Source: a virus. From it: a stretch of DNA of 44,687 bases. The stretch is from positions 1 through 44,687 of IMG/VR virus record IMGVR_UViG_3300036832_000819; one strand, given 5' to 3'. A program made the position numbers and the translations under genes. The notes below the pieces were generated by a model. It ran no database searches. It was not told the origin of the DNA and saw only the letters and a program-made list of their open reading frames with translations. Of the stretch, positions 306-44,197 are shown one piece after another (the first letter of the stretch is position 1; every line of letters starts with the position of its first letter).

Positions 306-381
306 TGAAGGCTCCTTCCGTTCGGGGTGAAGCACCAGGGTTGGCGCTCCAGCCAGCGCTCGGTGAGCGCCAGCTGCAGGG
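306..381 (-). promoter_or_regulatory. Two-hairpin leader (module A) with start-associated motif
   Basis: After the TGA of the upstream gene come CCCTGCAGCTG, a hairpin GCGCTC-ACC-GAGCGC, GGCTGGAG, a second hairpin AGCGCCA-ACCC-TGGTGCT, and CCGAACGGAAGGAG (plus-strand 312-325) just before the ATG at 305. The order of parts is the same as in the leaders at 679, 43371 and 44118. Confidence 0.65.
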
Positions 382-678
382 TCAGTCCCTCTCGACAGCC
401 CAGCGGGCTAGCTCGTTGCCCTGGATCGTCCAGCGGGGCTCGCCGGTCTTCACCCAGCAGCGGTTCTCGTAGTCGTAGCTGTTGTCGAAGAGCCAGCCCC
501 AGGGCACGAAGCCAGCCTCGCGGACTTCGTCCGGATTGAGGATCAGGCCACGGTGGTAGAAGGTCGAGTTGCCCGGGTGAGACTTGCTCAGCTGCGGGTC
601 GCCGTCGATCAGCACCCGCATGCCGTGCTCGCAGACGATGTCGCCGCGCCGAAGCTCCGGGGTCGTCAGGGTCAGCAT
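382..678 (-). CDS. Conserved-type phage protein, 98 aa, unknown function
   Basis: The chosen start is the ATG at 678, 6 nt after GGAAGGAG. A longer frame reaches 798 but would translate the leader. The protein begins MLTLTTPELRRGDIVCEHGM and ends with WTIQGNELARWAVERD. Proteins with LRxGDxVxxHGMRV near the start and RWT(I/V)QGN near the end are, to my knowledge, common hypothetical proteins of actinophages. No catalytic motif is visible. It is the first gene of the leftward operon and has the most elaborate leader, so its expression is probably controlled. Confidence 0.85.
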   Translation of the reverse strand: MLTLTTPELRRGDIVCEHGMRVLIDGDPQLSKSHPGNSTFYHRGLILNPDEVREAGFVPWGWLFDNSYDYENRCWVKTGEPRWTIQGNELARWAVERD

Positions 679-798
679 TGAAAGCTCCTTCCGTTCGGGA
701 TGGGTGCGAAGACCGCACTCCGAGCCGCTCAAGGCCTTGGCGTCGAGCGACTCGCAATGCAACGGAAGGAAGGATTCTCTTGTCTCCCTCTTGCGCAT
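679..798 (-). promoter_or_regulatory. Leader module D with a possible SD-masking stem
   Basis: On the minus strand the region holds TGCGAGTCGCTCG, GGCTCGGAG, a hairpin GTGCG-GTCTT-CGCAC and CCGAACGGAAGGAG (plus-strand 685-698) before the ATG at 678. Upstream, plus-strand 761-770 reads AACGGAAGGA, the exact inverse of 686-695. In the mRNA this gives a perfect 10-bp stem plus a G-U pair that would cover the ribosome binding site. Confidence 0.6.
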
Positions 799-971
799 TC
801 ACGCTTGAGCGAGGAGCGGCTTACCCGAAACCTGGCGCTCCCTCTCATGGGCCTCCCGGGAGTACGGTCGTGTCCGGGTGGAAGGATCCTCCAGCTCCGG
901 GCCAAACGCCTCGGAGCCGAATGCCAGGTCGCTCGTCCTGGCCTCTCACCTGCAACCGGGGGATCTGATCA

Positions 972-1007
972 CTCGCCGGGCGAGATCACAGTTCACCTGT
1001 TGTGAAC
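972..1007. promoter_or_regulatory. Two adjacent inverted repeats, candidate operators
   Basis: CTCGCC-G-GGCGAG at 972-984 is a perfect inverted repeat, and GTTCAC-CTGTT-GTGAAC at 991-1007 is a second. Their position in the divergent control region suggests repressor or activator sites, which is inference. Confidence 0.45.
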
Positions 1008-1271
1008 GCAGACCGCAAGGGTGCGGCCGAACGAACTTCTCGCAATTTGCGGGAATATCGTGCTCAGAGATCCGGGATTTGCGGGCCTCAGGGACAGAGC
1101 AGGTACTCGGGACGCAGGTACATCCACGCTGCAGTCCTGGCTCGTCCCGAGCCGGTGCACGCCGCACGCCTGGCGCTCGGCTCTGCCCTGCCTGCCGCCG
1201 CCCGGTTGGGCTGGTGCCTCCGCAGCAGCGGCACGCACGGCTCGCGCCCGCACCCACGGGACAGCAGAGCG

Positions 1272-1315
1272 CTCCCCCAAGCCTCCCCCAGTGCACCGCA
1301 ACCCCGCATGGTTGC
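1272..1315 (+). other. Integrase-site-like element: paired CTCCCCCA plus core-like repeat
   Basis: CTCCCCCAA (1272-1280) and CTCCCCCA (1283-1290) are followed after exactly 12 bases by CCCGCATGG (1303-1311). The same arrangement and spacing occurs at 30351-30391 beside the integrase gene. Here the core lies inside the inverted repeat GCAACC-CCGCAT-GGTTGC (1298-1315). Paired short repeats beside a core resemble arm-type and core-type tyrosine integrase sites, but a shared regulatory site is also possible. Confidence 0.4.
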
Positions 1316-1542
1316 AGGAGATCCCAGTGCACAGCGAGTCGCATTGACTTGCTGTTCGACCCGCTCCTGCCATGCCGACCCGGCTGGTGCACCTGCACGC
1401 CCCGGGCCGCCAGGCCGCTCTGCTGCTGGCGCGGCGGGCCGGTGGGGAGGGCACGCTCGCGCTCGGTGTCGCGGTCGGCTCTTGGGAGTCCCACATATCC
1501 CTCCCGATTTCCCGCGTACGAGGGTCGAGCTGGCCGCTTTTC

Positions 1543-1643
1543 ACTTTGTGACATGTCGTGATTTGGCTCAACGGAGCCAGGTCGCCTCCAGATTCCCGGG
1601 GAAACGCTCGGGGTCTGAGGTGACTTTGTGACACGTCAGACCC
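1543..1643 (+). promoter_or_regulatory. Direct repeat and 8-bp hairpin before the late block
   Basis: ACTTTGTGACATGTC at 1543-1557 and ACTTTGTGACACGTC at 1623-1637 differ at one base. The second copy overlaps a hairpin whose stem is GGGTCTGA (1611-1618) and TCAGACCC (1636-1643), just upstream of the GGGAG and ATG of the first late gene. These are candidate operators or an RNA control hairpin. No clear promoter hexamers stand out. Confidence 0.45.
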
Positions 1644-1656
1644 GAAGGGAGTGATC

Positions 1657-1812
1657 ATGGCGAAGGACGAGACGAAGACGGAGAAGGGGAAGGACGAGCC
1701 GCCGGCAGGGCCGTACTTTCCGCCCCTCTCTGAGGAGCAGATCGCCTCGGAGAAGTCGTACTCGCAGATCGAGGACGAGCGGGCAGCGGAGCCTGAGGAT
1801 GACGGCGCCTGA
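1657..1812 (+). CDS. Small acidic hypothetical protein, 51 aa
   Basis: This is the first rightward gene, with GGGAG 6 nt before its ATG. The protein begins MAKDETKTEKGKDEPPAGPY and is highly charged throughout, probably disordered. Its end overlaps the start of the next gene by 14 nt. I recognise no domain. Because it precedes the terminase genes it could be a minor virion or packaging accessory, but nothing in the sequence shows this. Confidence 0.65.
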   Translation: MAKDETKTEKGKDEPPAGPYFPPLSEEQIASEKSYSQIEDERAAEPEDDGA

Positions 1813-1945
1813 GGTCTTGACCGACTGGGCGTTCGAGCCGGAACCGCAGCCGGCGCCCCCTCGAGCGGACGAGCTCCCCGAGCCTCCGACGGCCTACGGC
1901 GAGCAGGTGCCGCTCCCCGGCTCCGACCTCCCGAAGGAGGCGTGA
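1799..1945 (+). CDS. Proline/glutamate-rich hypothetical protein, 48 aa
   Basis: The frame starts at the ATG at 1799 inside the previous gene and stops at a TGA that shares one base with the next ATG (1945). About half the residues are Pro, Glu, Ala or Asp (for example WAFEPEPQPAPPRADELPEP), which indicates a disordered peptide. It resembles in composition, but not in clear sequence, the 44-residue protein at 37833-37967. Support comes from the tight overlaps on both sides. Confidence 0.5.
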   Translation: MTAPEVLTDWAFEPEPQPAPPRADELPEPPTAYGEQVPLPGSDLPKEA

Positions 1946-2310
1946 TGCTCCCATCAGAGACAGATCCTCTCACGGGGATTCTCCAGCAGCTGTTCAACCC
2001 GACGCACGGGTACGAGCCCGACCCGGCTGCGCTGGCCTCCAGGGGCTCGAACCCGGCCCCGGTCGTCGCGGCGGTGCTCGCCCACATGGGGGCTCAGTCG
2101 GGTCCGAACGAGGTGCTGAGAGGTCACCCGCTCGGCGCTCCTGTCCCCGGGAAGCAGTTCGCCTGGGCGGGGCACAACTTCGGCGCACAGAACGCGGGCG
2201 AGTTCCTGAACTGGCTGGCGTCTCGAGGCGTGCATTACGGGCACTGGGCGCAGGCGCATCCCGCCGCTGCTGCGTTGCTCGGCATCCAGGGAGGAATGGG
2301 TCACGCATGA
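1945..2310 (+). CDS. Putative virion protein with a C-terminal HPxAAA motif domain, 121 aa
   Basis: The ATG at 1945 follows GGAGG by 4 nt. The N-terminal half, including TGILQQLFNPTHGYEP, is unlike anything I know. The C-terminal 45 residues (FAWAGHNFGAQNAGEFLNW, then WAQAHPAAAALLG) match the end of the 248-residue protein at 18612-19358 (FDWGGQTWGAGDASKFMAYL, then WAAAHPSAAAIFG). The shared pattern is an aromatic-glycine start, a K/RGV centre and WAxAHPxAAAxxG. This suggests a common particle-associated module. The function is unknown. Confidence 0.75.
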   Translation: MLPSETDPLTGILQQLFNPTHGYEPDPAALASRGSNPAPVVAAVLAHMGAQSGPNEVLRGHPLGAPVPGKQFAWAGHNFGAQNAGEFLNWLASRGVHYGHWAQAHPAAAALLGIQGGMGHA

Positions 2311-2432
2311 GAAAGCCGAGGAGGCTGACCTGTAAGCAGTGCAGGAAGCGCTTGCCGAAGATCGCGCTGATCCACGGCGACCCCTACTGCTCGACCAGGT
2401 GCGCACAGAAGGCTCACGGCGTTGCCGGCTGA
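2307..2432 (+). CDS. Small zinc-ribbon protein, 41 aa
   Basis: The ATG overlaps the previous TGA (ATGA) and GGAGGAATGGG lies just upstream. The 41 residues contain CKQC and CSTRC, spaced as in short treble-clef or zinc-ribbon folds, in a very basic context (MRKPRRLTCKQCRKRLPK). A nucleic-acid or protein-binding role is likely, but no specific function can be assigned. It lies two genes upstream of the terminase, among small coupled genes. Confidence 0.6.
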   Translation: MRKPRRLTCKQCRKRLPKIALIHGDPYCSTRCAQKAHGVAG

Positions 2433-2715
2433 GAAGGGCAGGAACCTGGCGCAGAAGGTCGTCCAGGAGCTGATCACGGAGGAGGAGTGGAGGGAGGCGG
2501 TCGAGAGCCTGTGGTCGATCGCCACTCAGGGGACGAAGCCGGACTGGGTCTACTGCCCTTCTTGCAGAAAGAAGGTGCAGGCCGACCGCGTCGATCTCCG
2601 AGCTCGAGCGGACGCGCTCGCCCGTCTCCAGGAGATGGGCTTCGGCAAGGCGAAGGACGAGGACGAGTCGAAGCAGGGCTTGATCGTGCACCGGACGATC
2701 GTCAGGCCGGCGTGA
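2422..2715 (+). CDS. Candidate small terminase or packaging accessory, 97 aa
   Basis: The frame opens with TTG at 2422, with GAAGG about 9 nt upstream, and overlaps the previous gene by 11 nt. Residues 1-40 look helical (LAQKVVQELITEEEWREAVE), the middle has CPSC, and the C-terminal half is charged and helical. No named small-terminase family is recognisable. The suggestion rests on size, predicted helices and position two genes before TerL with no other candidate nearby. It could equally be an unrelated zinc protein. Confidence 0.5.
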   Translation: MPAEKGRNLAQKVVQELITEEEWREAVESLWSIATQGTKPDWVYCPSCRKKVQADRVDLRARADALARLQEMGFGKAKDEDESKQGLIVHRTIVRPA

Positions 2716-3083
2716 AGTACACGGTCTGCGTCGACTTCGACGGCGTCATCCACCGGGAGGAGAACTTCGTCAGTCCGGACGTGATCCACGGGCCTCCTGT
2801 CCCGGGCGCGATCGGCTGGCTCGAGAACCTGCAGCGGAAGTTCGACGTCGTGGTGCTGTCGACGAGAGCGGAATCGCCGGCCGGGAAGATCGCGATCGAG
2901 CGCTGGCTGACCGCTCGAGGGCTCGGCGGCATCCGGGCGACAGCGGTGAAGGTGCCGGCGCTTCTGTACGTGGACGACCGGGCCTGGCGCTTCACAGGAG
3001 CGAACTTCCCCTCACCTGAAGATATTCACCGGGCTCTGCCCTGGCACAAGGAGCGCGATGCGGGAGGTCGAGTCAAGGTTTGA
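2712..3083 (+). CDS. HAD-superfamily phosphatase-like protein, 123 aa
   Basis: The GTG start overlaps the previous TGA. The protein has the ordered HAD motifs: DFDGV at residues 8-12 (nucleophile Asp8 and acid Asp10), STR at 50-52, Lys80, and YVDDR at 86-90. The fold is compact, without a large cap domain, as in small phage and bacterial HAD phosphatases acting on nucleotides or DNA ends. The substrate is not evident. Its last 26 bases overlap the terminase gene, so the two are probably translated together. A role in nucleotide metabolism or DNA-end processing is inference. Confidence 0.8.
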   Translation: MKYTVCVDFDGVIHREENFVSPDVIHGPPVPGAIGWLENLQRKFDVVVLSTRAESPAGKIAIERWLTARGLGGIRATAVKVPALLYVDDRAWRFTGANFPSPEDIHRALPWHKERDAGGRVKV

Positions 3084-4659
3084 GCCTCTGCCGCCGCAGT
3101 GGGCGTTCTTCCAGTCCGGGGCCAAGGTCCTGGGCTACGGCGGCGCCATGGGCGGCGGTAAGAGCCGCTGTCTGTGCGAGTGGGTGTTCGACCACTGCTT
3201 GCGCCACCCTGGCCTGCAGGCCGTGATCGCCCGCCAGTCGCACGTCTCCATCGTCGAGTCGACGCGCAAGATCATGTTCCAGCAGGTGATCCCTCCCGAG
3301 GTGCTCCAGGTCTCGAGGGTGATCGAGTCGGGTGGCAAGGACTTTGTCGCCTTCCCGAACGGATCGACGATCCACTTCATCGGCCTCGACGACCCGGGCA
3401 AGCAGTTCTCGACCGAGATCGGGCTCGCCGCCTTCGACGAGGCTCACCAGATCGAGGAGGACGATGTCCTACTCATCAGAACACGACTTCGGCAGCGCTG
3501 CCCTGAATGCATTCGCAAGAGCATTGCTGACTGCGGGCATTACCCCAGACGAGTTGCACTGGGATTCAACCCGGAGAACCCGGGACACTGGCTTTACCAG
3601 TGGTTCATTGCCGGTGCGAACATGGACCTCTGGCCCGACGGGAAAATGCGCGGTTATCACAAGACAGAGCTTTTCGCGGCCGGCGGCGACCGTCCACTTG
3701 GCTCCTGCGAATTCATTTTCTCGAAGGCAACCGACAACGCGTATCTTCCTGCGTCGTACATCGAGCAGGAGCTCGGTGGCCTGAAGCCGCTGCTCCGGAA
3801 GCGCTACCTCGAGGGCCAGTGGATCTACGTCTCCGGGCAGTCGTTCTTCGACATCGAGGCACTGTCGGAGTACGAGCAGCGCGTCCGTCCGCCCTGGAAG
3901 ATCGGCATTACCGAGGGCGACCCCATCAGAGATAAAAACGGCCTGTTGAGCCGTCGAAACAAACCGAGAATCAGAGAACACCGAGACGGAAACTGGTGGG
4001 TCTGGGAAGCGCCCGTGCGAGAACGAGAGGGACCTGATGGCGAGAAACTTCCCGCTCACCGTTACGTTGCAGCGGTCGACGTCTCCTCCGGGACGGCGAA
4101 CGACTTCTCGGCGATCCAGGTGGTTGATGTTGACACTTTCTCTCAGGTGGCGGAATACCAGGCACTCATTGATCCTGACCTTTTGGCTGTCGAAGCCGCC
4201 CGCATCGGACACATCTACAACTGGGCTCTCCTCGCCCCCGAGATCACGGGTGGATGGGGAGCCTCGGTCGTCCGGAAGCTCGAGCAGCTGAAGTACGGCC
4301 GCATCTATACGCGCCGCGTCGAGGACCGTCTGGCGAAGAAGTTCACGGACGTCCTGGGCTGGGATACGACCAACGCGTCACGGTCGTACATGACCGACAA
4401 GCTCGAGGAGGTCTTGCGCGAGCGGGAGTTCGGTCTCCTGTCCCCTCGCTGCCTCGGGGAGCTGGCCTCGTTCGTCTACCCGAAGAAGAAGGGCAAGGGC
4501 GAATTCGAGTTGTCCCCGAGAGCGCAGGCCGGCGCCAACGACGACCTCGTCATCACTCTGGCGATGGCAGTGGCTGTCGTCCTGAAGCAGCCGAAGGAGC
4601 TCAGGCGCCCGAAGGACAAGGGGCCGATGGGCGACCTCGCCGCCGTGCCTGGCTACTGA
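3058..4659 (+). CDS. terL: Terminase large subunit
   Basis: This ATPase-nuclease packages DNA through the portal. The ATG follows AAGGAG by 5 nt. Of 533 residues, the N-terminal ATPase has Walker A GGAMGGGKS (28-36) and Walker B LAAFDEAH (123-130). The C-terminal RNase H-like nuclease shows its acidic set at AAVDVSSG (Asp341), APEITG (Glu395) and ANDDLV (Asp495/496). The length is normal. Parts of the gene (about 3470-3730 and 3905-4190) use more AT-ending codons than the rest. The order TerL, portal, scaffold, capsid is classical. Confidence 0.97.
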   Translation: MREVESRFEPLPPQWAFFQSGAKVLGYGGAMGGGKSRCLCEWVFDHCLRHPGLQAVIARQSHVSIVESTRKIMFQQVIPPEVLQVSRVIESGGKDFVAFPNGSTIHFIGLDDPGKQFSTEIGLAAFDEAHQIEEDDVLLIRTRLRQRCPECIRKSIADCGHYPRRVALGFNPENPGHWLYQWFIAGANMDLWPDGKMRGYHKTELFAAGGDRPLGSCEFIFSKATDNAYLPASYIEQELGGLKPLLRKRYLEGQWIYVSGQSFFDIEALSEYEQRVRPPWKIGITEGDPIRDKNGLLSRRNKPRIREHRDGNWWVWEAPVREREGPDGEKLPAHRYVAAVDVSSGTANDFSAIQVVDVDTFSQVAEYQALIDPDLLAVEAARIGHIYNWALLAPEITGGWGASVVRKLEQLKYGRIYTRRVEDRLAKKFTDVLGWDTTNASRSYMTDKLEEVLREREFGLLSPRCLGELASFVYPKKKGKGEFELSPRAQAGANDDLVITLAMAVAVVLKQPKELRRPKDKGPMGDLAAVPGY

Positions 4660-4674
4660 AAGAGAGGTGACGCC

Positions 4675-5690: not shown

Positions 5691-5701
5691 TCGGAGGGCG
5701 A

Positions 5702-6256: not shown

Positions 6257-6265
6257 AGGGCGACC

Positions 6266-7744: not shown

Positions 7745-7745
7745 T

Positions 7746-13461: not shown

Positions 13462-13469
13462 CCGGAGAC

Positions 13470-13505
13470 GGGGGGTGCGACTGCGGTCCACCCCCCTCTC
13501 TTTTC
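13470..13505 (+). terminator. Intrinsic terminator after the capsid gene
   Basis: GGGGGGTG (13470-13477) pairs perfectly with CACCCCCC (13489-13496) across an 11-nt loop and is followed by TCTCTTTTC. The genes beyond continue in the same direction, so it probably attenuates transcription and gives the capsid gene a higher transcript level. Confidence 0.85.
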
Positions 13506-13518
13506 GCGAAGGAGCCTC

Positions 13519-29673: not shown

Positions 29674-29824
29674 CGGCGAGCAGCAACAGCTCGTAGGCGC
29701 CGAGCTCGCGAGGGAAGTTTTCGACCCGGGCGTAAACGACCTCGCGGGGAAGAGCGACGCTGACGTCGTAGTTGCCGATCAGGTGGTTGCCCGTCCCGTC
29801 GTTTCTGACGTCGAGGCGGATCAC
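29627..29824 (-). CDS. Small protein coupled to an Xre regulator, 65 aa
   Basis: The GTG at 29824 is chosen because GGAAGGAG lies 5 nt upstream, inside a near-copy of the start-associated motif, and overlaps the TGA of the regulator gene. A frame from 29866 lacks a site. The protein starts VIRLDVRNDGTGNHLIGNYD and looks like a small alpha/beta domain. It is probably made with the regulator. Its last 47 nt are antisense to the methyltransferase gene. Confidence 0.65.
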   Translation of the reverse strand: MIRLDVRNDGTGNHLIGNYDVSVALPREVVYARVENFPRELGAYELLLLAVRAVERASKDRTPGG

Positions 29825-30042
29825 TCGTTCTCCTTCCGGTCGGTTATCCAGATCTCGAGCAGGCACTCGCCAGGCATCGCCCGGTCGTATGCCAGGGCTC
29901 CGTTGTAGTCGGGAGGGTGCTGGGTCTCATGGCGCGAGATCGCCCCCTGGGAGAGACCTGTCTGCTGGGAAAGGGCCACCTGCGTCCAGCCGTGTCGGTG
30001 ACGAGCCTGGCGTAACTTCCGGCAGAAGCGGTACTGTTCCAT
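29821..30042 (-). CDS. Xre-family helix-turn-helix regulator, 73 aa
   Basis: The ATG at 30042 has GAGGAGG 4 nt upstream. The HTH covers residues about 6-55: FCRKLRQARHRHGWTQVALS followed by QTGLSQGAISRHE, a standard Xre/Cro pattern. The C-terminal part is short, without a dimerisation or peptidase domain. Rightward late transcription would run antisense through it to the terminator at 30101. It could be a lytic or lysogenic regulator, and a palindrome at 30063-30093 in its leader may be its own operator. Confidence 0.85.
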   Translation of the reverse strand: MEQYRFCRKLRQARHRHGWTQVALSQQTGLSQGAISRHETQHPPDYNGALAYDRAMPGECLLEIWITDRKENE

Positions 30043-30062: not shown

Positions 30063-30093
30063 TTTAGTCTCGTTCCTTCCGTTCGGGACTAAA
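30063..30093 (-). promoter_or_regulatory. Palindrome around a start-associated motif
   Basis: TTTAGTC (30063-30069) and GACTAAA (30087-30093) flank TCGTTCCTTCCGTTCGG on the plus strand. On the minus strand the motif reads CCGAACGGAAGGAA and lies about 30 nt before the regulator start, with no start codon of its own close by. It may be an operator, or a hairpin that holds the motif in its loop. Confidence 0.5.
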
Positions 30094-30100
30094 TCGGGGT

Positions 30101-30134
30101 AGAGGGGGTCCGTTCGCGGGCTCCCTCTCTTTTT
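30101..30134 (+). terminator. Intrinsic terminator ending the late transcript
   Basis: AGAGGGGG (30101-30108) pairs with CTCCCTCT (30121-30128), with one G-U, and is followed by CTTTTT. It lies 430 nt past the last late gene and just upstream of the minus-strand regulator, so late mRNA would include full antisense to that regulator. Confidence 0.82.
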
Positions 30135-30135
30135 G

Positions 30136-30488
30136 CGTTCGTAGATAGGGCCTCATGGGCCTGCCTCCGTGCTCGACTACAGCTGCCTCCTGGAGAGCTC
30201 CCCCGCCGCAGAGGAGCGCCTAGTCCGGAGAGCTCCGGGGCGTCCGTCCTTCCTATCAGGACCGCGTCGGGTGGCGCAAGACGGAGTCTCTGCAAATTGC
30301 GGGATTCCATGGGAAAGAATCGGAGCCTGTGCGGGGGGTCGAAAAGGAGGCTCCCCCAAAATCTCCCCCAAAACGCCGGAATCCCGCATGGATAAAGGCA
30401 ATACACAGATTGAAAGGGGACAGCACGGGCCTGTGGATCGACCTCCGTTGTACGTCACGTCGGCGTAGGTTTCCCCTGCACAAAGACA
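30136..30488. other. Non-coding att/control region beside the integrase
   Basis: No gene is supported here. It contains two copies of GGAGAGCTCC (30192 and 30227), an inverted pair GCGGGATTCC (30299-30308) and GGAATCCCGC (30378-30387), the paired CTCCCCCAA repeats at 30351-30371, and a core-like CCCGCATGG at 30383. Position next to the integrase 3' end and repeat content make it the best candidate for attP. Confidence 0.5.
30351..30391 (+). other. Candidate attP arm pair and core
   Basis: CTCCCCCAA occurs at 30351-30359 and 30363-30371, then after 12 bases from the second CTCCCCCA comes CCCGCATGG (30383-30391). A third such pair, CTCCCCCAA at 30561-30569 and 30573-30581, lies within the last codons of the integrase gene. 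The arrangement also occurs at 1272-1311. Paired repeats at 11-12 bp spacing are typical of integrase arm sites, but binding is not shown. Confidence 0.45.
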
Positions 30489-30555: not shown

Positions 30556-31725
30556 TCAATCTCCCCCAACAACTCCCCCAAACGCGAGGCCGATCAGATT
30601 GGCCCGCGCTGCCCGCTCGGAGTCCACCTCCTTGCGGATGTGCTCGTAGGTCGTCCGGGTCACTTGGGTCGACGAGTGGCGCATCACCAGCTTGACCTGG
30701 TTGTCGTCGGCGCCCGCGTAGATCAGGGCCGTCGCCAGGTTGTGGCGCAGCGGGTGCAACGAGGTGACGGGCGAGCCGGCCTTTTCGCAGATGCTCTGAA
30801 CGTAGCGGTGCAGGTTGCCGCGGTCGATGGCCGTGCCCTCGGTCTCGGTCGCGAGCACGAAGTGCGTTCCGAACTTGTACTCGGTCTCCTTCCGCAGCTG
30901 CCAGAGGGCGTCGTACAGCTCGTCGACCATCGGCACCCAGCCCTCGGAGTCTTCCGTCTTGACGTCGAAGCCGATCTCCTCGTTCGGGGCGACGAGGATC
31001 ATCCGGCGTTTGAAGTCGATCCGATTCCAGGTCAGGTTGATGATCTCCTTCTGGCGCAGGCCGGCGAAGAGCGCGAGGCAGATCGCGACGAGCCAGCGGG
31101 TGTCGGTGGCGCCGGCCACCTCGAGCAGATGTCGGGCCTCCTGCTTGGTCAGGATCGGGAAGCGGCGGCTGCGGCGCTTCTTCGGCTTGTCGTCCTTGTC
31201 GAGCTGCAGGACCGGGTTGACGCCGTTCTCGCTGAAGACGTCGTCGTGGACGGCGCGGGAGAGCATCCGCTTCAGGCAGGTGAGGACGCCGTTCTGCGTC
31301 AGCTCGGCCAGGGGCTCGCCCTTCTCCGTGCGGTACTCCCTCAGGTAGTGGACGAAGTCGCTGACCATGGCGACCCTGATGTCCCTGACCCTCTGGCCCT
31401 CACCGAAGAAGGGGTAGATGTAGCGCTCCAGCAGGCCGCGGTAGTGCTTCTCGGTCGACTTGGCGAGCGGGGCACGCTCGAGCCAGCGCTCGGCCATGTC
31501 CCGCAACCTGATGCTCTTCGGGACGGAGCTCGTCGTGCTTGTCGGCGTCTCGAGCTTGGTCTTCAGCAGGGCGAGGTACGCCTCCTGCGGGCAGGCGAAG
31601 CTGTCCTTGAGGCGGCGCTTCTTGCGGGTGATGTCGTACTTGAACCGGTTCCCGTGTGGCGAGATGCCGGGGAAGTCGGCGAGATCGTGCCTCAGGCCGC
31701 AGCCGGGGCAAGAGTCGATGATCAT
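30556..31725 (-). CDS. int: Tyrosine-recombinase integrase, 389 aa
   Basis: The enzyme integrates and, with a partner, excises the prophage. Residues 70-165 are the SAM-like core-binding domain (MAERWLERAPLAKSTEKHYR). The catalytic domain has Arg224 (AGLRQKEI), Lys256, His324 and Arg327 (LHPLRHNL), His350 (MRHSS) and Tyr360 (TTYEHI), all present. The N-terminus has CPGC and a third Cys in FACPQEAY, perhaps an arm-binding or zinc segment. The ATG at 31725 follows a start-associated motif. The last codons (FGGVVGGD) encode the arm-like CTCCCCCAA repeats. Confidence 0.95.
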   Translation of the reverse strand: MIIDSCPGCGLRHDLADFPGISPHGNRFKYDITRKKRRLKDSFACPQEAYLALLKTKLETPTSTTSSVPKSIRLRDMAERWLERAPLAKSTEKHYRGLLERYIYPFFGEGQRVRDIRVAMVSDFVHYLREYRTEKGEPLAELTQNGVLTCLKRMLSRAVHDDVFSENGVNPVLQLDKDDKPKKRRSRRFPILTKQEARHLLEVAGATDTRWLVAICLALFAGLRQKEIINLTWNRIDFKRRMILVAPNEEIGFDVKTEDSEGWVPMVDELYDALWQLRKETEYKFGTHFVLATETEGTAIDRGNLHRYVQSICEKAGSPVTSLHPLRHNLATALIYAGADDNQVKLVMRHSSTQVTRTTYEHIRKEVDSERAARANLIGLAFGGVVGGD

Positions 31726-31730: not shown

Positions 31731-31744
31731 CTCCTTCCGTTCGT
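31731..31744 (-). promoter_or_regulatory. Start-associated motif of the integrase gene
   Basis: On the minus strand ACGAACGGAAGGAG ends 5 nt before the ATG. The gap to the previous gene is 81 bp and also holds a single ACTCCCCCA repeat at 31784-31792. Confidence 0.65.
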
Positions 31745-32307: not shown

Positions 32308-32651
32308 GCCCGGATCTCCCAGAGCTCGATGCCTCGTCTCTTCACTTCGTCGATCATGCCCTTCGTGCCCGGGCTCTCACCGTCCCAGAAGGCGATGACG
32401 AGGTCGGGCTGCTCCTGGTCGAGCATCAGCCGGTTACGGATGTGGCCGGCGGCTCGGCCCTGCTCTCTCCACTTCGCCGGGTAGACAATCGGCGTTCCGA
32501 GACCGAGCTTCACGGCGAGGCTTCCGGCCATCCTGTCTGCACCGCCAGCCCCACCGTGAATCACGATCGTCCCTTCAGGGAGGCAGGAGAGAACCTCGCG
32601 CATCCGATCTGCGTCTCTCCAACCTCTGCTCCCGCAGACGACTACCTTCAC
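32304..32651 (-). CDS. DUF2493/SLOG-like protein, 115 aa
   Basis: The GTG overlaps the previous TGA, with GAGG just upstream. The protein begins VKVVVCGSRGWRDADRMREV and continues with IVIHGGAGGADRMAGSLAVK and DLVIAFWDGESPGTKGMIDE. The GSRxW, HGGAxGAD and FWDGxSxGT phrases are those of the DUF2493 group in the SLOG Rossmann-like superfamily, thought to bind nucleotides or their derivatives. Its phage role is unknown. It is followed directly by the CTG-start gene. Confidence 0.87.
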   Translation of the reverse strand: MKVVVCGSRGWRDADRMREVLSCLPEGTIVIHGGAGGADRMAGSLAVKLGLGTPIVYPAKWREQGRAAGHIRNRLMLDQEQPDLVIAFWDGESPGTKGMIDEVKRRGIELWEIRA

Positions 32652-32851
32652 GCCGCCTCGGCCAGCTCCTTCGGTCTGCGCCCCCTGCGAGCGACCTTCG
32701 TGCCCGTCGCCTTGTCGGCGCAGCTGCCGCAGAGGTCGGCCTGCTTCGAGCCTCGGCGTGCGTCCATGTAATTGACACGCATCGTCGCGCCCGATTGCTC
32801 CTCGACTTCGCTCCCGCACTGGTCGCAGACCAGCACAGTTTTCCTTGCCAT
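32648..32851 (-). CDS. Zinc-finger small protein, 67 aa
   Basis: The ATG follows CGAACGGGAGGAG, a variant of the start-associated motif, by 2 nt. The protein starts MARKTVLVCDQCGSEVEEQS and has a second pair in LCGSCADK, so CxxC...CxxC binds zinc. The end (ARRGRRPKELAEAA) has an AT-hook-like RRGRRP, which suggests DNA binding. It heads a three-gene coupled group with the DUF2493-like and GGLWTS genes. Confidence 0.78.
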   Translation of the reverse strand: MARKTVLVCDQCGSEVEEQSGATMRVNYMDARRGSKQADLCGSCADKATGTKVARRGRRPKELAEAA

Positions 32852-32853: not shown

Positions 32854-32866
32854 CTCCTCCCGTTCG
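32854..32866 (-). promoter_or_regulatory. Variant start-associated motif
   Basis: On the minus strand it reads CGAACGGGAGGAG and lies 2 nt before the ATG at 32851, in the short gap between two coupled groups of early genes. Confidence 0.55.
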
Positions 32867-32881
32867 TCGATGACCGAAGGA

Positions 32882-34446: not shown

Positions 34447-34498
34447 AGAGGGGATCCTTTCTGTCGGGGTAGTGAAGTGTTAGCACAGACCATGGACA

Positions 34499-37836: not shown

Positions 37837-37967
37837 GCCGGTACCGGCTCTCCCTCGGGGATCGCCTCGGGCACTTCGGCCGGCTCGACCTTGTACGGGT
37901 CCTCCGCGGGAACCGGGTCGACGATCGGCTCGATCGTGTAGGGCTTGTCCTCCTTGCCGATCTCCAT
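37833..37967 (-). CDS. Acidic Pro/Glu-rich peptide, 44 aa
   Basis: GGAGGAGG lies about 8 nt before the ATG and the TGA overlaps the next GTG. The peptide begins MEIGKEDKPYTIEPIVDPVP and repeats the theme PYTIEP/PYKVEP, ending EGEPVPA. It is surely disordered. It is supported by the good ribosome site and coupling. Confidence 0.6.
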   Translation of the reverse strand: MEIGKEDKPYTIEPIVDPVPAEDPYKVEPAEVPEAIPEGEPVPA

Positions 37968-37968
37968 G

Positions 37969-39835: not shown

Positions 39836-40014
39836 CCGTTCACCGGCAAGCTGGAGGCCTGGGTGTAGGTCGACATCGTCGGAGCCGCCGAGAAGCTGAC
39901 GTTCGTCTGCGGCAGCATCTGGCGGACGAACTGCATCTGCGGCCTCGCCTTGATCGGCTCGACCGCTCGACCGGTCTCCTGCCAGTCGACGTCGCCCCAG
40001 TCGTCGTCGCTCAA
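39832..40014 (-). CDS. Small hypothetical protein, 60 aa
   Basis: The TTG overlaps the previous TGA (TTGA), with no separate ribosome site. The protein begins LSDDDWGDVDWQETGRAVEP and ends NVSFSAAPTMSTYTQASSL-. It is acidic at the start and Ser/Thr-rich at the end, and likely disordered. It may partner the exonuclease, whose ATG overlaps its stop. Confidence 0.55.
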   Translation of the reverse strand: MSDDDWGDVDWQETGRAVEPIKARPQMQFVRQMLPQTNVSFSAAPTMSTYTQASSLPVNG

Positions 40015-40223
40015 AAAGGGCGCACGGCCACCGTGATCCGATCGAGCTTGGCCATCTCCTTCTCGGGGATGGCGCGGCCGGCGAGCAGCGTCGCCTGGGG
40101 CTGGTCTTCTGCCAGCACCGAGGTCGGGGACACGATCACCGAACCCTGCTCGACGATCTCGCCGTCCTTGTCCAGCTTCGGCTGGAGGATGACCGCGTAC
40201 TCGTACAGCTTCAGCTCGCTCAT
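40011..40223 (-). CDS. Small beta-rich hypothetical protein, 70 aa
   Basis: The ATG overlaps the previous TGA. The protein reads MSELKLYEYAVILQPKLDKD, then GSVIVSPTSVLAEDQPQATL and LDRITVAVRPF. Small phage proteins of the type 'YeyAVl.P...dge.v..p..vlA.de.qA..lA.r.ip' are common; their role is not known to me. It lies upstream of the exonuclease genes. Confidence 0.72.
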   Translation of the reverse strand: MSELKLYEYAVILQPKLDKDGEIVEQGSVIVSPTSVLAEDQPQATLLAGRAIPEKEMAKLDRITVAVRPF

Positions 40224-40504
40224 TGCCTCACCCCGGTCTGGTCGATCGAGAGCGAGGTGGTGCGGAGGGTGGCGTCCTGCTCGCGCTCCTCGGGGGCGTA
40301 GCCCGAGACTGAGACGGCGTACTGCTGTCCGGAGGTCTTGCCGGCCAACGCTGCGATCAGTCCCTCGGCCGACGCTGCGGCCTCGCTGATGATGTCTCGG
40401 GCGTTGTCGTCGAGCTGGTCGAAGGGCGGTGAGTGCGTGCCTGTCTTGGCAGGGTCGAGCGAGCTACCGGGCTCGACGTCGCGCCACTCTGACTGGAACC
40501 TCAT
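40220..40504 (-). CDS. Hypothetical protein, 94 aa
   Basis: The ATG at 40504 follows GAGGAGGT by 7 nt. The protein begins MRFQSEWRDVEPGSSLDPAK, has a helix (DIISEAAASAEGLIAALAGK) and then beta segments (YAVSVSGYAPEEREQDATLR). No family is recognised. A longer frame upstream lacks a ribosome site. Confidence 0.68.
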   Translation of the reverse strand: MRFQSEWRDVEPGSSLDPAKTGTHSPPFDQLDDNARDIISEAAASAEGLIAALAGKTSGQQYAVSVSGYAPEEREQDATLRTTSLSIDQTGVRQ

Positions 40505-40541
40505 GTGTCGTACCTCCTCGGTCCGAAAACGTTGATTGCGA

Positions 40542-40799
40542 TCAGCTCTGTTTGGAAGAGGTCGGCGAAGGTCGGACCTTGAGCCTTCGCGAGATCGACC
40601 AGCGGCCACGCGCTGTCTTGCCGAAGCCCCGCTCCTCCATCTCCCAGGTCGACAGGCAGCGCCTCCCGTCCTCTCTCGGCGGGTTCATCGCCAGGCCCTC
40701 GGTCGACGTGTACTGGTGCGTCCCGACCCGGTGGGTGTCGAAGGCATCCAGGCCCCCGAAGACCTCGCCACAGGCTCGGCACTCGTAGCCGCCGTTCAC
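40542..40799 (-). CDS. FDxHR-type zinc-binding protein, 85 aa
   Basis: The GTG overlaps the previous TGA. The protein has CRACGEVFGGLDAFDTHRVG (CxxC, then FDxHR), the mark of a family of putative zinc-binding proteins in actinophages. A later RRCLSTWEMEERGFGK with Cys completes a C2HC-like set. The end is basic and Ser-rich. Its exact role is unknown; DNA or protein binding is likely. Confidence 0.83.
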   Translation of the reverse strand: MNGGYECRACGEVFGGLDAFDTHRVGTHQYTSTEGLAMNPPREDGRRCLSTWEMEERGFGKTARGRWSISRRLKVRPSPTSSKQS

Positions 40800-41299
40800 T
40801 GGGCAAGCCAGGCTTCCCAGTTCTGTGCGATGGCCAGCACCTGATCCGGGTGCTCGACGGGAATCGACAGGCTCGGGAGCGTGGCTACCGCGGCGTTCAG
40901 CGCGACCGCTCGACGGATCGCCCGCTGCTCCTCCGGGTGCTTCGGCCGCTGGAACTCAGATGCCGGTTGCGCTCCTGCTGTCGGCGCTGGGAACGGCTGT
41001 GCGGTCGGGGTGGGCTGCGCTGCCTGGGGGAAGAGCGCCGGGGCTGGTTGAGCGGAGGGCATGGCGCCGTCCAGCTCGACCGACTCCAGGTAGCGGTCCT
41101 CGAACCTGCCGTCCTTCGACGAGCGCGAGTCGTAGGTCACCCTGACCGGAGCGTTCAGGGTCGCTCGCGCCTGCTCCCAGATCGCCTGCTGGAAGGTCAC
41201 GTACTCCGTCCCGTACTGATCCCAGGCCTTGAAGATCGCGCCCTTGCTCGTCTGCTGCGGCTCGGCCCTGGTGAGCACGGTGGACACGGTCTGCTGCAT
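40796..41299 (-). CDS. Possible OB-fold ssDNA-binding-like protein, 167 aa
   Basis: The ATG at 41299 follows AGGAGA by 5 nt and overlaps the previous TGA. Residues 1-80 have the strand order of a small OB fold (STVLTRAEPQQTSKGAIFKA, then WDQYGTEYVTFQQAIWEQ, PVRVTYDSRSS and YLESVELDG). Residues 85-115 are a Pro/Ala linker and the end is helical. A single-strand-binding or related DNA role near the exonuclease would fit, but the family is not certain. Confidence 0.55.
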   Translation of the reverse strand: MQQTVSTVLTRAEPQQTSKGAIFKAWDQYGTEYVTFQQAIWEQARATLNAPVRVTYDSRSSKDGRFEDRYLESVELDGAMPSAQPAPALFPQAAQPTPTAQPFPAPTAGAQPASEFQRPKHPEEQRAIRRAVALNAAVATLPSLSIPVEHPDQVLAIAQNWEAWLAQ

Positions 41300-41553
41300 C
41301 ACTCTCCTCTCAGGTACAGGTAGTCCCGTCCGGTCAGGTCATGCAGCTTCCGCAGGTGCTCGTTCCGGGGCATCCGTCCGCGCCTCTCCCAGAACCACCA
41401 GGTGTTCGGAGCCACGTTCAGCGCTGCGGCCATACCTGCGTGGTCGAGGTTGCGCTCCTCGCGGAGCAGGCGGTACCGGACCTTGCGGTTCGCAGTCCGT
41501 TGGTCTTCGGGCGTGCCCTCGGACGTCATCTCGTCGCTGATGCCGACCGTCAT
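41299..41553 (-). CDS. Xre-like regulator at the switch, 84 aa
   Basis: The protein has an HTH: KVRYRLLREERNLDHAGMAA, then NVAPNTWWFWERRGRMPRNE, a Cro/Xre-like pattern with unusual Trp-Trp in the recognition helix. The ATG at 41553 has no visible ribosome site, so a leaderless mRNA is possible. TTGCAG and TAGGTT, 18 bp apart on the minus strand, could be its promoter. It is first in the long leftward chain and faces three operators at 41652-41689, so it is a good candidate repressor or Cro. Confidence 0.78.
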   Translation of the reverse strand: MTVGISDEMTSEGTPEDQRTANRKVRYRLLREERNLDHAGMAAALNVAPNTWWFWERRGRMPRNEHLRKLHDLTGRDYLYLRGE

Positions 41554-41651
41554 TGGTGCGTGAGAGTGCCGTAGACGAAGCTGATGCGCAATACGCGGAA
41601 CCTATGTGCGACCTACGGTCCCCTGCAAATGCCAGCAATCAGGTTTTACAT

Positions 41652-41695
41652 CGGAATATTCCGCTCGGCATATTCCGTTCGGAATATTCTTGACA
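41652..41695 (+). promoter_or_regulatory. Three tandem palindromic operators and a -35 box
   Basis: CGGAATATTCCG (41652-41663, perfect palindrome), CGGCATATTCCG (41666-41677) and CGGAATATTC (41680-41689) repeat every 14 bp. TTGACA begins at 41690, directly after, with ACAGAT 18 bp downstream as a weak -10. Such spacing suggests cooperative binding that controls rightward transcription. Confidence 0.75.
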
Positions 41696-41734
41696 GATAC
41701 GGCGAGCTGTGCAACAGATACCGAAAACGGACTC

Positions 41735-41770
41735 GCGCAGGAGCAAGCGCAGGGGCAAGCGCAGGGGCAA
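41735..41770 (+). repeat. Three 12-bp tandem repeats
   Basis: GCGCAGGAGCAA is followed by two copies of GCGCAGGGGCAA. The array lies between the putative rightward promoter and the first rightward gene, so it would be in its 5' leader. Confidence 0.8.
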
Positions 41771-41852
41771 GGGGGCGACCGAGGCTTCCGGGCTCTCCGG
41801 GCTGTTTCCGGGATGTGGATGTAGCGGACGCGGATGGAGAGGAGGGGCACGG

Positions 41853-42008
41853 GTGGGTACGGACCCGTTCAACGACGAGCGGAACGACGAGCTGTACGAC
41901 GCCTGGATCGACAGGCTGGCGCTCGACGATCCGGGATCAGAAGACCCGAACTGGCATGTACGGAGGTACGAGCCCAGCTGCGAGACCGCGGTTGCTGACG
42001 GCGGCTGA
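41853..42008 (+). CDS. Small acidic protein downstream of the switch, 51 aa
   Basis: GGAGAGGAGGGG lies 6 nt before the GTG at 41853. The protein begins VGTDPFNDERNDELYDAWID and is acidic and helical. A longer frame upstream would translate the repeats and leader and is not preferred. It is the first gene controlled by the operator-linked promoter, so it may antagonise repression. This is inference. Confidence 0.6.
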   Translation: MGTDPFNDERNDELYDAWIDRLALDDPGSEDPNWHVRRYEPSCETAVADGG

Positions 42009-42528
42009 GCGCGTCGTTCTCCTCCTCCGCACGTTCTACGAGGCGAGGGAGTACTGGGACGCTCGCTCAGGCGGCGACGGCCCGCAGCTGATGCCTTCGG
42101 TCTGGCGCGAGGGGTCGTATATCGAGCTGGAACGTCGGCTCGCAGATCTTCGCGACGGTGCCGATCGCCAGCTCTGGTTCCACGCCACACGTCGGTACCG
42201 AGATGGCGAGATCGTCTCGCTCGAGGTGCCCGTGCGGCGCACCGTTCGCGGTCCGACATTCACGCTGCCGCCGTGCTGCGAGCTCGTCGCCGGGGCGGTC
42301 AAGCTTTCGGACGAGCGCACCCTGGTGCGCTGCTACCGCTGGCGCTCAGATGTGGACGAGGCGCTCGCGGCCGGAGGTGTGCTGCTCCTGACGGAGCTGA
42401 TGTACGACGGCAGGCGGGACAAAATCGTCGTGCCGGACGTCTTCCACCGACGCGCACTCGGACTCCCACCGAAAGACGAAAAACCGCCTGGAATCGGCGG
42501 CGGGGCTTTGATACGCTCCAGAGCGTAA
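41956..42528 (+). CDS. Rightward protein of unknown function, 190 aa
   Basis: The start is uncertain: ATG at 41956 (used here) or TTG at 41992. Neither has a strong ribosome site and both overlap the previous gene. The protein has LLTAAERVVLLLRTFYEARE, EGSYIELERRLADLRDGADR, and a beta-rich half (GEIVSLEVPVRRTVRGPTFT). Small actinophage proteins with an N-terminal helix pair and 'LWFHATRRY' occur, but I cannot name a function. It ends convergent to the leftward operon. Confidence 0.65.
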   Translation: MYGGTSPAARPRLLTAAERVVLLLRTFYEAREYWDARSGGDGPQLMPSVWREGSYIELERRLADLRDGADRQLWFHATRRYRDGEIVSLEVPVRRTVRGPTFTLPPCCELVAGAVKLSDERTLVRCYRWRSDVDEALAAGGVLLLTELMYDGRRDKIVVPDVFHRRALGLPPKDEKPPGIGGGALIRSRA

Positions 42529-42594
42529 ACGGGGAAAGTGCGCTCTAGAGTCGATCGAGAGGGGGTCGCTCGGGAGCCCTCCTTGTGGAGCGGT

Positions 42595-42618
42595 GAGGGA
42601 GACAGAGAATCCTCCTTC
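42595..42618. repeat. Copy of a 24-nt element also at the head of the leftward operon
   Basis: On the minus strand GAAGGAGGATTCTCTGTC, then TCCCTC, directly after the last stop of the operon, matches the plus strand at 765-790 with two single-base gaps. The two copies are therefore complementary within one leftward transcript. The rest of the short gap 42529-42616 shows weak hairpins without T-runs. Confidence 0.55.
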
Positions 42619-42814
42619 ACTGCTGCTTCTGTTTCCAGGCGTCGAGCTGGGACTTCGTCCAGATCGGCCCGCAGGCAAGCACCCACATCGGCTCAGGCAA
42701 GCTCCCATCACTGATGCCCTTCCGGTCCTGGTAGAGCCGAGCCCGGAACGACATCCTGGAGATGCCGAGGTAGTCGGCCGCTTCCGCGGCTCCGAAGATC
42801 TGGAGCTTGGTCAC
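42617..42814 (-). CDS. Excisionase-like HTH protein, 65 aa
   Basis: The GTG at 42814 overlaps the previous TGA. The protein (VTKLQIFGAAEAADYLGISR, then SFRARLYQDRKG, MWVLACGPIWTKSQLDAW) fits small HTH proteins of the excisionase/MerR-like (HTH_17) group, which bind DNA through a helix and a wing. It could be the directionality factor for the integrase, although it lies far from it. It is the last gene of the leftward operon. Confidence 0.75.
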   Translation of the reverse strand: MTKLQIFGAAEAADYLGISRMSFRARLYQDRKGISDGSLPEPMWVLACGPIWTKSQLDAWKQKQQ

Positions 42815-43032
42815 GGCTGTTCCGGGTTCAAGAAGTCGAGGATCTCGTCGATCATGTCGAAGGTCTCGTCCAGGCGTGCCAGGTAGCCCTCGGCCCACGC
42901 TGCGGAGAGGGCTGTTTCCAGCCGGTCGTGCAGGCTGCGTGCGAGTTGCACCAGCTCCTGGTGATCGTCGTCGGTCTCGCCACCCGTGAAGCCGAGGCGA
43001 GGGTCGCCCTTGATCCTGCGATGTTCGGTCAT
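42811..43032 (-). CDS. Small helical acidic protein, 73 aa
   Basis: The ATG overlaps the stop of the previous gene. The protein begins MTEHRRIKGDPRLGFTGGET and is helical afterwards (HQELVQLARSLHDRLETALS, LDETFDMIDEILDFLN). No family is recognised. The GTG of the next gene overlaps its TGA. Confidence 0.68.
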   Translation of the reverse strand: MTEHRRIKGDPRLGFTGGETDDDHQELVQLARSLHDRLETALSAAWAEGYLARLDETFDMIDEILDFLNPEQP

Positions 43033-43370
43033 AGCTCCTCGATCGCCCTGTCGATCTTGCCGCCTGCCTCGACGAGCAGGAGCGCGGCTTTCCGAGCCCC
43101 GAGGTCGTGGTCAGGATCGGCCTCGGCCTCCAGCTTCTCCGCGACTGCTGCGAGCAGTCGACCGAGGTGCGTGATCACCCAGTGGGCCTCGCCGACGTAG
43201 TCGTTGGAGCCGTCGAAGTGCAGGGCTCCTATGGCCTCGTCGATCCTGTCGACGGCGTACATCGCGGGATCGGGGTCGAGACCTAGATCGGCTGGGTCGA
43301 TCGCGTCCGGATCGTCCAGGGCCGTGCGTGCCAGGCTGAGCGCCTGCAGCGGGTCGAAGGTCGTTTCCAT
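43029..43370 (-). CDS. Acidic helical protein, 113 aa
   Basis: The ATG at 43370 lies 6 nt after the start-associated motif. The protein begins METTFDPLQALSLARTALDD and is acidic and largely helical (MYAVDRIDEAIGALHFDGSN, LLAAVAEKLEAEADPDHDLG). It may be a host-takeover or regulatory protein, but nothing identifies it. Its gene heads the last three genes of the leftward operon. Confidence 0.75.
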   Translation of the reverse strand: METTFDPLQALSLARTALDDPDAIDPADLGLDPDPAMYAVDRIDEAIGALHFDGSNDYVGEAHWVITHLGRLLAAVAEKLEAEADPDHDLGARKAALLLVEAGGKIDRAIEEL

Positions 43371-43446
43371 GATGTTCTCCTTCCGTTCGGTTCGGAGGTT
43401 CGGGATTGAGCCTCCGAGCCCTGGCTCGCGGCCAGGACTCGCAGGG
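43371..43446 (-). promoter_or_regulatory. Two-hairpin leader (module C)
   Basis: After the previous TGA come CCCTGCGAGTC, a hairpin CTGGC-CGCGA-GCCAG, GGCTCGGAG, a second stem GGAGG...CCTCC and CCGAACGGAAGGAG (plus-strand 43377-43390) before the ATG at 43370. The order is that of modules A, B and D. Confidence 0.65.
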
Positions 43447-43584
43447 TCACTCCTTCGGGCCGCACTTCTCGCAGCACACGACGACTTGCCGGCCGGCGCG
43501 AAGCGCAACCCACATGCGCCGGCTCCAGCCTTCGCACTCCGGGCAGTAGCCCGGGTTGATCCAGGTGACGAGCTGGAACGTCAT
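43447..43584 (-). CDS. Zinc-ribbon small protein, 45 aa
   Basis: The ATG overlaps the TGA of the upstream gene. The protein MTFQLVTWINPGYCPECEGW continues to CCEKCGPKE, giving CPEC and CEKC knuckles of a zinc ribbon in 45 residues. The function is unknown. Its stop is followed by a leader module. Confidence 0.68.
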   Translation of the reverse strand: MTFQLVTWINPGYCPECEGWSRRMWVALRAGRQVVVCCEKCGPKE

Positions 43585-44117
43585 GCCGTCACCTCGGCCC
43601 ACCACTCGTCCAGGCCGTAGCCCTCGATCGTCGCCGCGACGATCCCCAGGATCTCCTCGCGAGCCGGATGGCCCTCGGGCAGCTCCCTGGCCTGGCGGAC
43701 GAAGCCCTCGGCCCAGTCGCGGGCCTGCTCCTCGTCGTTCGGCGTGCAGTCGAAGCTGGAGCCCAGGTCGATGTAGACCACCTCGGCCTCGACCCCGTGC
43801 AGCGAGATCTGATCCTCGCTGTCCGGGTGCCGGGTGACCACGACCACGGGCTTCGTCGGCTGCAGAGCCGTGAGCACCCGCTTGCGCATGTCGTCGGCGT
43901 CGAGATACGCGCATGCGGCTTTCCCGGCTGCGGGCTCCTCGCCCTGCATGCCGTTGTGCCACAGCTCCTCGCTGTCCGAGCCTTCGGCGTCCGTCGTCCA
44001 GACGTTGACGAAGGTGTCCGACCAGTCGACCTTGACGTCGGTCACTTCGTTGTCGGCGTCGAGCTGCACGCTGACGTAGGGCGTGAACAGGCAGGAATAC
44101 CCGTTCGTGTTGGACAT
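43581..44117 (-). CDS. Hypothetical early protein, 178 aa
   Basis: The ATG at 44117 lies 7 nt after the start-associated motif. The protein begins MSNTNGYSCLFTPYVSVQLD, with beta segments (VTDVKVDWSDTFVNVWTTDA), a central LTALQPTKPVVVVTRHPDSE, and acidic helices near the end (REEILGIVAATIEGYGLDEW). No family is recognised. A larger frame upstream translates the leader and is rejected. Confidence 0.78.
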   Translation of the reverse strand: MSNTNGYSCLFTPYVSVQLDADNEVTDVKVDWSDTFVNVWTTDAEGSDSEELWHNGMQGEEPAAGKAACAYLDADDMRKRVLTALQPTKPVVVVTRHPDSEDQISLHGVEAEVVYIDLGSSFDCTPNDEEQARDWAEGFVRQARELPEGHPAREEILGIVAATIEGYGLDEWWAEVTA

Positions 44118-44197
44118 GGTGATTCTCCTTCCGTTCGGTTTTGAAGTGTCGGGGTGACACTCCAGCCCATCCGGCGTGAGCCGGACGAGCTGCAGGG
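44118..44197 (-). promoter_or_regulatory. Two-hairpin leader (module B)
   Basis: After TGA: CCCTGCAGCTC, hairpin TCCGGC-TCAC-GCCGGA, GGGCTGGAG, hairpin AGTGTC-ACCCC-GACACT, then CCGAACGGAAGGAG (plus-strand 44125-44138) and the ATG at 44117. It is the clearest of the five modules. Confidence 0.7.

Follow-up and report, generated by a model that had tools for sequence, protein, structure and literature searches.

Cluster K mycobacteriophages carry Start Associated Sequences (SAS; consensus GGGATAGGAGCCC; Pope et al. 2011, PMC3203893), part of which are preceded by Extended SAS (ESAS), 17-bp imperfect inverted repeats of a common consensus with a SigA-like promoter (Adephagia, PMC11373665). The authors judged RNA hairpins at these sites to be little supported (PMC3203893, PMC11373665), and the function of SAS, known since 2011, was still called unknown in papers of 2024–2025. 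In Cluster EF Microbacterium phages, the SAS/ESAS pair consists of a 13-bp motif (consensus GGGAAAGGACCCC), repeated about ten times in the position of a ribosome site, and a weaker conserved, GTAGAG-centred element just upstream of each copy; no hairpin is reported (PMC7302621). Here we characterise a related element on the minus strand of a 44,687-nt viral DNA (IMG/VR record IMGVR_UViG_3300036832_000819, positions 1 to 44,687, hereafter the window), in which a 14-mer, CCGAACGGAAGGAG, precedes leftward genes and forms the 3′ end of a leader with two adjoining hairpins.

This element resembles the Cluster K SAS in being an asymmetric repeat with a Shine–Dalgarno (SD) core, placed a few nucleotides before non-structural genes and almost confined to one strand; in both cases conservation exceeds SD pairing, and a second upstream element accompanies part of the copies. 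It differs in sequence (CCGAACGGAAGGAG here, GGGATAGGAGCCC there), in line with an earlier note on this DNA, and in its upstream part: the stems described below vary and covary and carry no promoter match, whereas the ESAS is a shared sequence with a SigA-like promoter. With the Cluster EF SAS the element shares the ribosome-site position, the bias to one strand and a degree of conservation above that of a ribosome site, but the leaders match neither of the two Cluster EF sequences. The SAS position is occupied here at five starts, all on a single strand, and at 0 of 38 rightward starts. Judged from its sequence, the element is thus an SAS by position with another sequence and an RNA-structured upstream part, that is, a hairpin-linked SAS variant.

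A constant sequence before leftward genes

Exact copies of CCGAACGGAAGGAG were found at 312–325, 685–698, 43377–43390 and 44125–44138, and copies with one mismatch at 29830, 30073 and 31731, all on the minus strand. Shuffled genomes contained 0.025 copies at ≤1 mismatch, which upholds the recurrence reported in the earlier note; at ≤3 mismatches, 18 sites were observed compared with 8.9 ± 2.8 expected from shuffles. Three of the exact copies lie 6 nt before an ATG, namely those of genes 114–305 (copy at 312–325), 382–678 (685–698, the first gene of the leftward array) and 43029–43370 (43377–43390), and the fourth lies 7 nt before the ATG of gene 43581–44117 (44125–44138).

For comparison across all genes, a home-made calling script supplied the gene set, and the best match to CCGAACGGAAGGAG was scored within 34 nt upstream of each start. 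Minus-strand starts included four with an exact match, one with one mismatch and one with two; none of the 38 rightward starts had a match with fewer than four mismatches, in agreement with the claim that only leftward genes carry the motif. The AAGGAG core of CCGAACGGAAGGAG is surely a ribosome site. At [AG]AGGAG core sites, CCGAACGG was present in the preceding 8 nt (≤1 mismatch) at 5 of 21 starts versus 2 of 105 other sites (those at 29830 and 32854); the 5′ part of the motif is therefore conserved beyond the ribosome site, as had been proposed.

Each exact copy ends a two-hairpin leader

The earlier description of a start-associated sequence was accurate as to position and strand, but the conserved unit, which comprises two hairpins and the motif, is far larger than 14 nt. 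Behind each exact CCGAACGGAAGGAG stands a structured leader of ~75 nt that the earlier note had not recognised, ordered as stop codon, stem I, stem II (with zero nt between the hairpins), a linker of 3–5 nt, CCGAACGGAAGGAG and ATG. The leaders at 312, 44125 and 43377 open at the TGA of the preceding unit, and that at 685 follows a long non-coding gap. Read on the minus strand, the leader before the 312 motif (TGACCCTGCAGCTGGCGCTCACCGAGCGCTGGCTGGAGCGCCAACCCTGGTGCTTCACC; 330–376) starts 5 nt after the TGA (384–382) of gene 382–678 and consists of stem I at 376–350 (12 bp), stem II at 349–330 (7 bp, loop AACCCT) and a 4-nt linker. The 44125 motif is preceded, after the TGA of gene 44198–44434, by a leader at 44144–44192 (TGACCCTGCAGCTCGTCCGGCTCACGCCGGATGGGCTGGAGTGTCACCCCGACACTTCAAAA; stem I 44192–44163, 13 bp; stem II 44162–44144, 7 bp, loop ACCCC), and the 43377 motif, after the TGA of gene 43447–43584, by one at 43395–43441 (TGACCCTGCGAGTCCTGGCCGCGAGCCAGGGCTCGGAGGCTCAATCCCGAACCTCCGAA; stem I 43441–43415, 11 bp; stem II 43414–43395, loop AATCCC). 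In the leader of the array's first gene (702–754, minus strand; GCATTGCGAGTCGCTCGACGCCAAGGCCTTGAGCGGCTCGGAGTGCGGTCTTCGCACCCATC), stem I occupies 754–721 and an imperfect stem II 720–702.

A fifth leader, additional to those associated with the earlier copies, is cut by the left contig end (1–45, minus strand): TGACTCTGC, a full stem I (37–10) and the 5′ arm of stem II are present, and this copy (TGACTCTGCGAGTCGCTCGGGCAACCGGGCGGCTCGGAGCGTCAC) then runs into the contig end. The right end of the contig begins just before the start of open reading frame (ORF) 44431–44682, so that, were the genome circular, the contig would lack a short segment bearing the remainder of the fifth leader.

Stem I is paired in 50 of 50 cells (ten pairs in each of five copies), compared with a mean of 33.2 and a maximum of 38 of 50 when 3′ arms were exchanged between copies. 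Eight of its ten pairs vary in sequence, mostly on both sides (A-T/G-C, G-C/A-T, C-G/G-C etc.), and pair 5 is U.G in all five copies; since such a pair has no meaning in DNA, its retention indicates selection on RNA rather than on DNA. Stem II is paired in 33 of 35 cells, with the leader of the integrase gene (see below) counted. The divergence of the stem sequences under maintained pairing points, at the level of sequence comparison, to a leader structure that acts as RNA. In a genome-wide ranking of 60-nt segments, those before the four exact motifs were among the most stable 0.7–2.2% (folding z-scores −2.4, −5.5, −3.3 and −3.4), and those before the doubtful copies were not unusually stable.

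The leader regions contained no sigma-70-like promoter match and no terminator match, and the hairpins were not followed by a T-run (0–3 T in the next 8 nt). No Rfam 15 family scored above its gathering threshold in the window. RNA targets of ANTAR proteins consist of two hairpins whose hexaloops have a fixed A and G; the leader loops vary (AACCCT, AATCCC, ACCCC, GTCTT), and a search of the genome for ANTAR gave no match, though its positive control also gave none.

In the first leader, all 10 nt of TCCTTCCGTT (761–770, minus strand) are complementary to AACGGAAGGA, which forms part of the 685 motif. The predicted fold closes the motif through TCCTTCCGTT at 770–761 (folding z = −5.5), and the first unit of the array may therefore be under translational control.

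Leaders head units of a leftward array

Leaders were distributed according to gene spacing. Within the leftward array, which runs from 798 to the contig end and over 44687–42600 (44687–42600 plus 800–1 in the scoring of starts), all four called genes with a gap of at least 35 nt carry a leader; gaps at the remaining junctions range from −4 to +5 nt. The leader therefore heads units whose inner genes are coupled by stop–start overlaps, which bears out the earlier proposals that the motif marks the first genes of translation units and that inner genes start by such overlaps. In the main early operon (41553 to ~29600), which relies on overlaps, hairpins are not enriched (found in 2 of 10 gaps against an expected 1.0), and among rightward genes they occur in 1 of 4 gaps (0.8 expected). 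The products of the leader genes mostly belong to no known family, and gene 382–678 has relatives in Streptomyces and Mycobacterium phages. The array is bracketed by a repeat of the form GAGGGAGACA(A)GAGAATCCT(T)CCTTC, present twice in opposite orientation, at the start of the first leader (765–790, minus strand) and just past the stop of the helix-turn-helix-like gene 42617–42814 (42595–42618, plus strand); through this pair, the array message would carry complementary stretches of ~24 nt at its two ends, or the repeats would be operators or terminal repeats.

About half of the ten copies originally listed belong with the leaders: those at 312, 685, 43377 and 44125 and, probably, the integrase copy at 31731–31744 (minus strand; ACGAACGGAAGGAG), 5 nt before the ATG of gene 30556–31725. 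The last has a weak stem II-like hairpin (GTCGTTC ACCCC GGGCGAC) 4 nt upstream, in a region of unremarkable stability (rank 0.265), though stem II fits by eye. The others fall outside the family or are doubtful. The minus-strand copies at 29830–29843 (CCGACCGGAAGGAG, inside the end of gene 29821–30042 and before a GTG) and 32854–32867 (ACGAACGGGAGGAG, two mismatches, 2 nt before the ATG of ORF 32648–32851) are indeed near-matches to CCGAACGGAAGGAG, but both fall within, or at the end of, the preceding coding sequence and lack a leader; they are doubtful members and may be weak ones. The copies at 34451 (four mismatches) and 37200 (three mismatches) are at chance level. The copy at 30073 stands before no gene start, as had been noted, and sits in its own small inverted repeat. 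Downstream of the integrase gene, 30065–30141 (minus strand) contains a pair of inverted repeats, one AGAGGGAGCCCGCGAACGGACCCCCTCT and the other TTTAGTC...GACTAAA; the 30073 copy lies in one of them, and they are a possible attachment site or terminator.

Relatives keep the plan with other constants

Alignments of capsid, portal and exonuclease identified distant relatives among viral records, and bacterial genomes searched for portal relatives yielded none. One relative, L194 (IMGVR 3300027874_000023), carries GTCAGTCAACCC ten times on a single strand at ≤1 mismatch and has none on the opposite strand (0.03 in shuffles); the copies mostly come after a GC-rich hairpin and before C?GAAAGGAGG, or a variant of it, which leads to the start. 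This arrangement, hairpin and GTCAGTCAACCC...GAAAGGAGG, stands before most early genes (L194:1057–6753), with perfect hairpins in 7 of 12 gaps versus 1.8 expected. A second relative, G002 (L149; IMGVR 3300036857_000362), whose portal is 26–28% identical to that of the window phage, has a hairpin, GTCGTC, ACCCC(C)AAC, GAAAGGAG and ATG, or a variant of this order, at about ten early genes (hairpin and GTCGTC...CCCC...GAAAGGAG before most early genes, L149:109–4625), and hairpins in 8 of 14 gaps versus 1.9 expected. Its constant tract is GTCGTC...CCCCAACGAAAGGAG, and one of its early genes carries the exact CCGAACGGAAGGAG of the window. The relatives thus keep the plan with other constants, which makes the constant tract phage-specific and the architecture the shared part. 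According to the earlier note, the motif would be just a ribosome site if relatives kept only its AAGGAG core; the exact 14-mer is indeed not kept, but the relatives have more than AAGGAG, namely a hairpin followed by a phage-specific constant tract that is just as long. In a further relative, G001, only isolated cases were seen (e.g. hairpin plus ACTGTCAACGAAGGAG), and the motif was not found in four more distant portal relatives (G010, G012, G013 and G014).

Wider searches of IMG/VR matched the exact 14-mer in 114 contigs, each with one copy per stretch, and 43 of them with a nearby ATG, which is about chance; we therefore rejected the 14-mer as an element common to other phages. One of these matches (L111) led to G002. 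The leader pattern TGACCCTGC..GGAG..GGAAGGAG gave ten matches in IMG/VR, none with two hairpins before a start; the G002-type pattern was found nowhere else in IMG/VR, and the L194-type pattern in none of the genomes.

A comparable layout exists in Streptomyces phages of the Stanwilliamsviridae, of which we inspected Muntaha (L146, NC_070786), Blueeyedbeauty (L147, NC_048720) and the related-looking DekoNeimoidia and Byblos (L144 and L148 included). Their intergenic gaps often hold a variable perfect hairpin directly before AAGCT(T), followed by the SD and the start; a hairpin immediately precedes 39 of the 77 AAGCT sites of the gene strand, compared with 7 of 71 on the other strand. The likeness to the window leaders lies in the succession of variable hairpin after the stop, constant tract, SD and start, which there stands before most genes. 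Unlike the leaders, these phages (~127–130 kb) have AAGCTT directly after the hairpin, and there is no sequence kinship between the two.

Possible roles of the leader

The element can be described as an over-long ribosome site coupled to an RNA structure under clear selection, with three different constants in three distantly related phages, which recasts what had been a question about a DNA repeat as one about an RNA module, testable by stem swaps. We lean towards reading the leader as a boundary module between translation units, the hairpin closing the first and an extended SD opening the second; we consider this somewhat more probable than its negation. The AAGGAG part would load the ribosome de novo at the head of a unit, with the genes inside coupled by stop–start overlaps. 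The hairpin would mark an RNA-level border. Its most likely task there would be to seal off and shield the upstream segment at its 3′ end, whether from exonuclease attack or following a cut in the linker, and to hold back the ribosome finishing the upstream gene. The invariant 5′ part of the motif would be read sequence-specifically by some host or phage factor, and such recognition of CCGAAC seems likely. If a boundary or processing module is indeed present, it would explain how many small genes are expressed independently in long polycistronic early arrays, and would offer portable insulating leaders for high-GC hosts.

Several observations weigh against the boundary reading. Stem II is imperfect in two copies; no orthologs of the leader genes were found in viral contigs, so the covariation was judged mainly between copies in one and the same genome; and the ribosome site of the first leader is predicted to be closed. 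Nor did any of the three phages gain predicted accessibility from its native hairpin, and the proposal that ribosome sites are held open in this way was accordingly rejected (predicted accessibility 0.17, 0.38 and 0.27 with the native hairpin versus 0.27, 0.36 and 0.34 with a shuffled one), and a role was therefore sought at the border: protection, slowing of ribosomes, partial U-less termination, cleavage or a protein target.

Termination at the border would make the hairpins U-less intrinsic terminators or attenuators that partly end transcription between units and leave the array graded or regulated. Ingham, Hunter and Smith reportedly described, in 1995, rho-independent terminators without a poly-U tail in the early region of the actinophage phiC31; by title and citation, these resemble the leaders as U-less hairpins in an actinophage early region. 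That precedent, as cited in PMC8355165 and PMC4411717, and the position of GC-rich hairpins directly after stop codons speak for termination. Canonical intrinsic terminators combine a hairpin with a T-run, which the leaders lack, with their 0–3 T in the 8 nt past the hairpin, and the invariant motif after the hairpin would be left unexplained. Moreover, only 3–20 nt separate the hairpins from the ribosome site that follows, which leaves a new promoter no space, and no promoter match was seen; the downstream genes would thus fall silent if termination were strong. We regard this explanation as rather unlikely. Endonuclease processing that splits the array into separate messages, like the RNase III sites between T7 early genes, would suit the location between units and the geometry of the leaders, in which stem I (11–13 bp) adjoins stem II (7–8 bp) and could stack on it to ~20 bp; many hairpins of the relatives, at 7–9 bp, are too short for standard RNase III, and we hold processing to be unlikely.

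Two adjoining stem-loops of ~70 nt also recall, in outline, the put RNA of the HK022 early transcript (~70 nt, two stem-loops; PMC9378689), and the leader could accordingly act as a put-like antiterminator or as the binding site of an RNA regulator: its hairpins and motif, on binding a protein of phage or host or RNA polymerase itself, would switch early-gene translation or elongation. The U.G at pair 5 in all copies, a motif longer than 16S pairing needs and the capacity of the first leader to close its own motif fit such a target. Yet put occurs once per early operon, near the promoter and not before each unit, and acts on RNA polymerase without a tie to a ribosome site, whereas the window has five copies at unit borders within one array; the relatives have single hairpins, there was no Rfam match and no candidate regulator was found, all of which leaves a regulator target improbable. 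Finally, a strong SD might have been spread by recent duplication of cassettes, with hairpins that are incidental or serve as DNA repeats for cassette recombination. The copies do share more than the motif (TGACCCTGC, GGAG), and the genes behind them are mostly orphans, as in exchangeable cassettes. This account is nevertheless very improbable, given stems that diverged with compensation while the motif did not, a U.G pair that was kept, and the recurrence of the plan in L194 and G002, where the constants are different.

One may tentatively picture an undescribed, widespread class of actinophage cis-RNA, in which each translation unit is marked by a hairpin, variable in sequence yet bound to keep its pairing, together with a phage-specific constant tract. 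A factor specific to the phage would read both and so give viral messages preference; we think this doubtful, if conceivable.

Genome context and further elements

The window looks like the nearly whole record of a temperate tailed phage, probably of an actinobacterial host. Terminase, capsid and other structural genes are transcribed rightward (1657–29673), and an integrase and a PD-(D/E)XK exonuclease leftward. Between divergent genes, 41640–41690 holds operator-like inverted repeats of the GGAATATTCCGAACGGAATATGCCGAGCGGAATATTCCG type; a sigma-70-like promoter match (41645–41674, plus strand) overlaps them, the leftward neighbour (41299–41553) is a weak HTH_31 match, and the region is probably the immunity switch. 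CCGAACGGAATATG at 41669 was considered as a member of the motif family and rejected, being part of the operator-like GGAATATTC inverted-repeat region between these genes. A strong hairpin, GGGGGGTGCGACTGCGGTCCACCCCCC, followed by TCTCTTTTC, lies in the gap that follows the major capsid gene (13462–13510, plus strand) and resembles a terminator or attenuator. The leader of the first rightward gene (1657) is strongly folded (1530–1660, plus strand; z = −4.2), and GACCCGAAGGGAGTG before the start of that gene is a loose echo of the leftward leaders.

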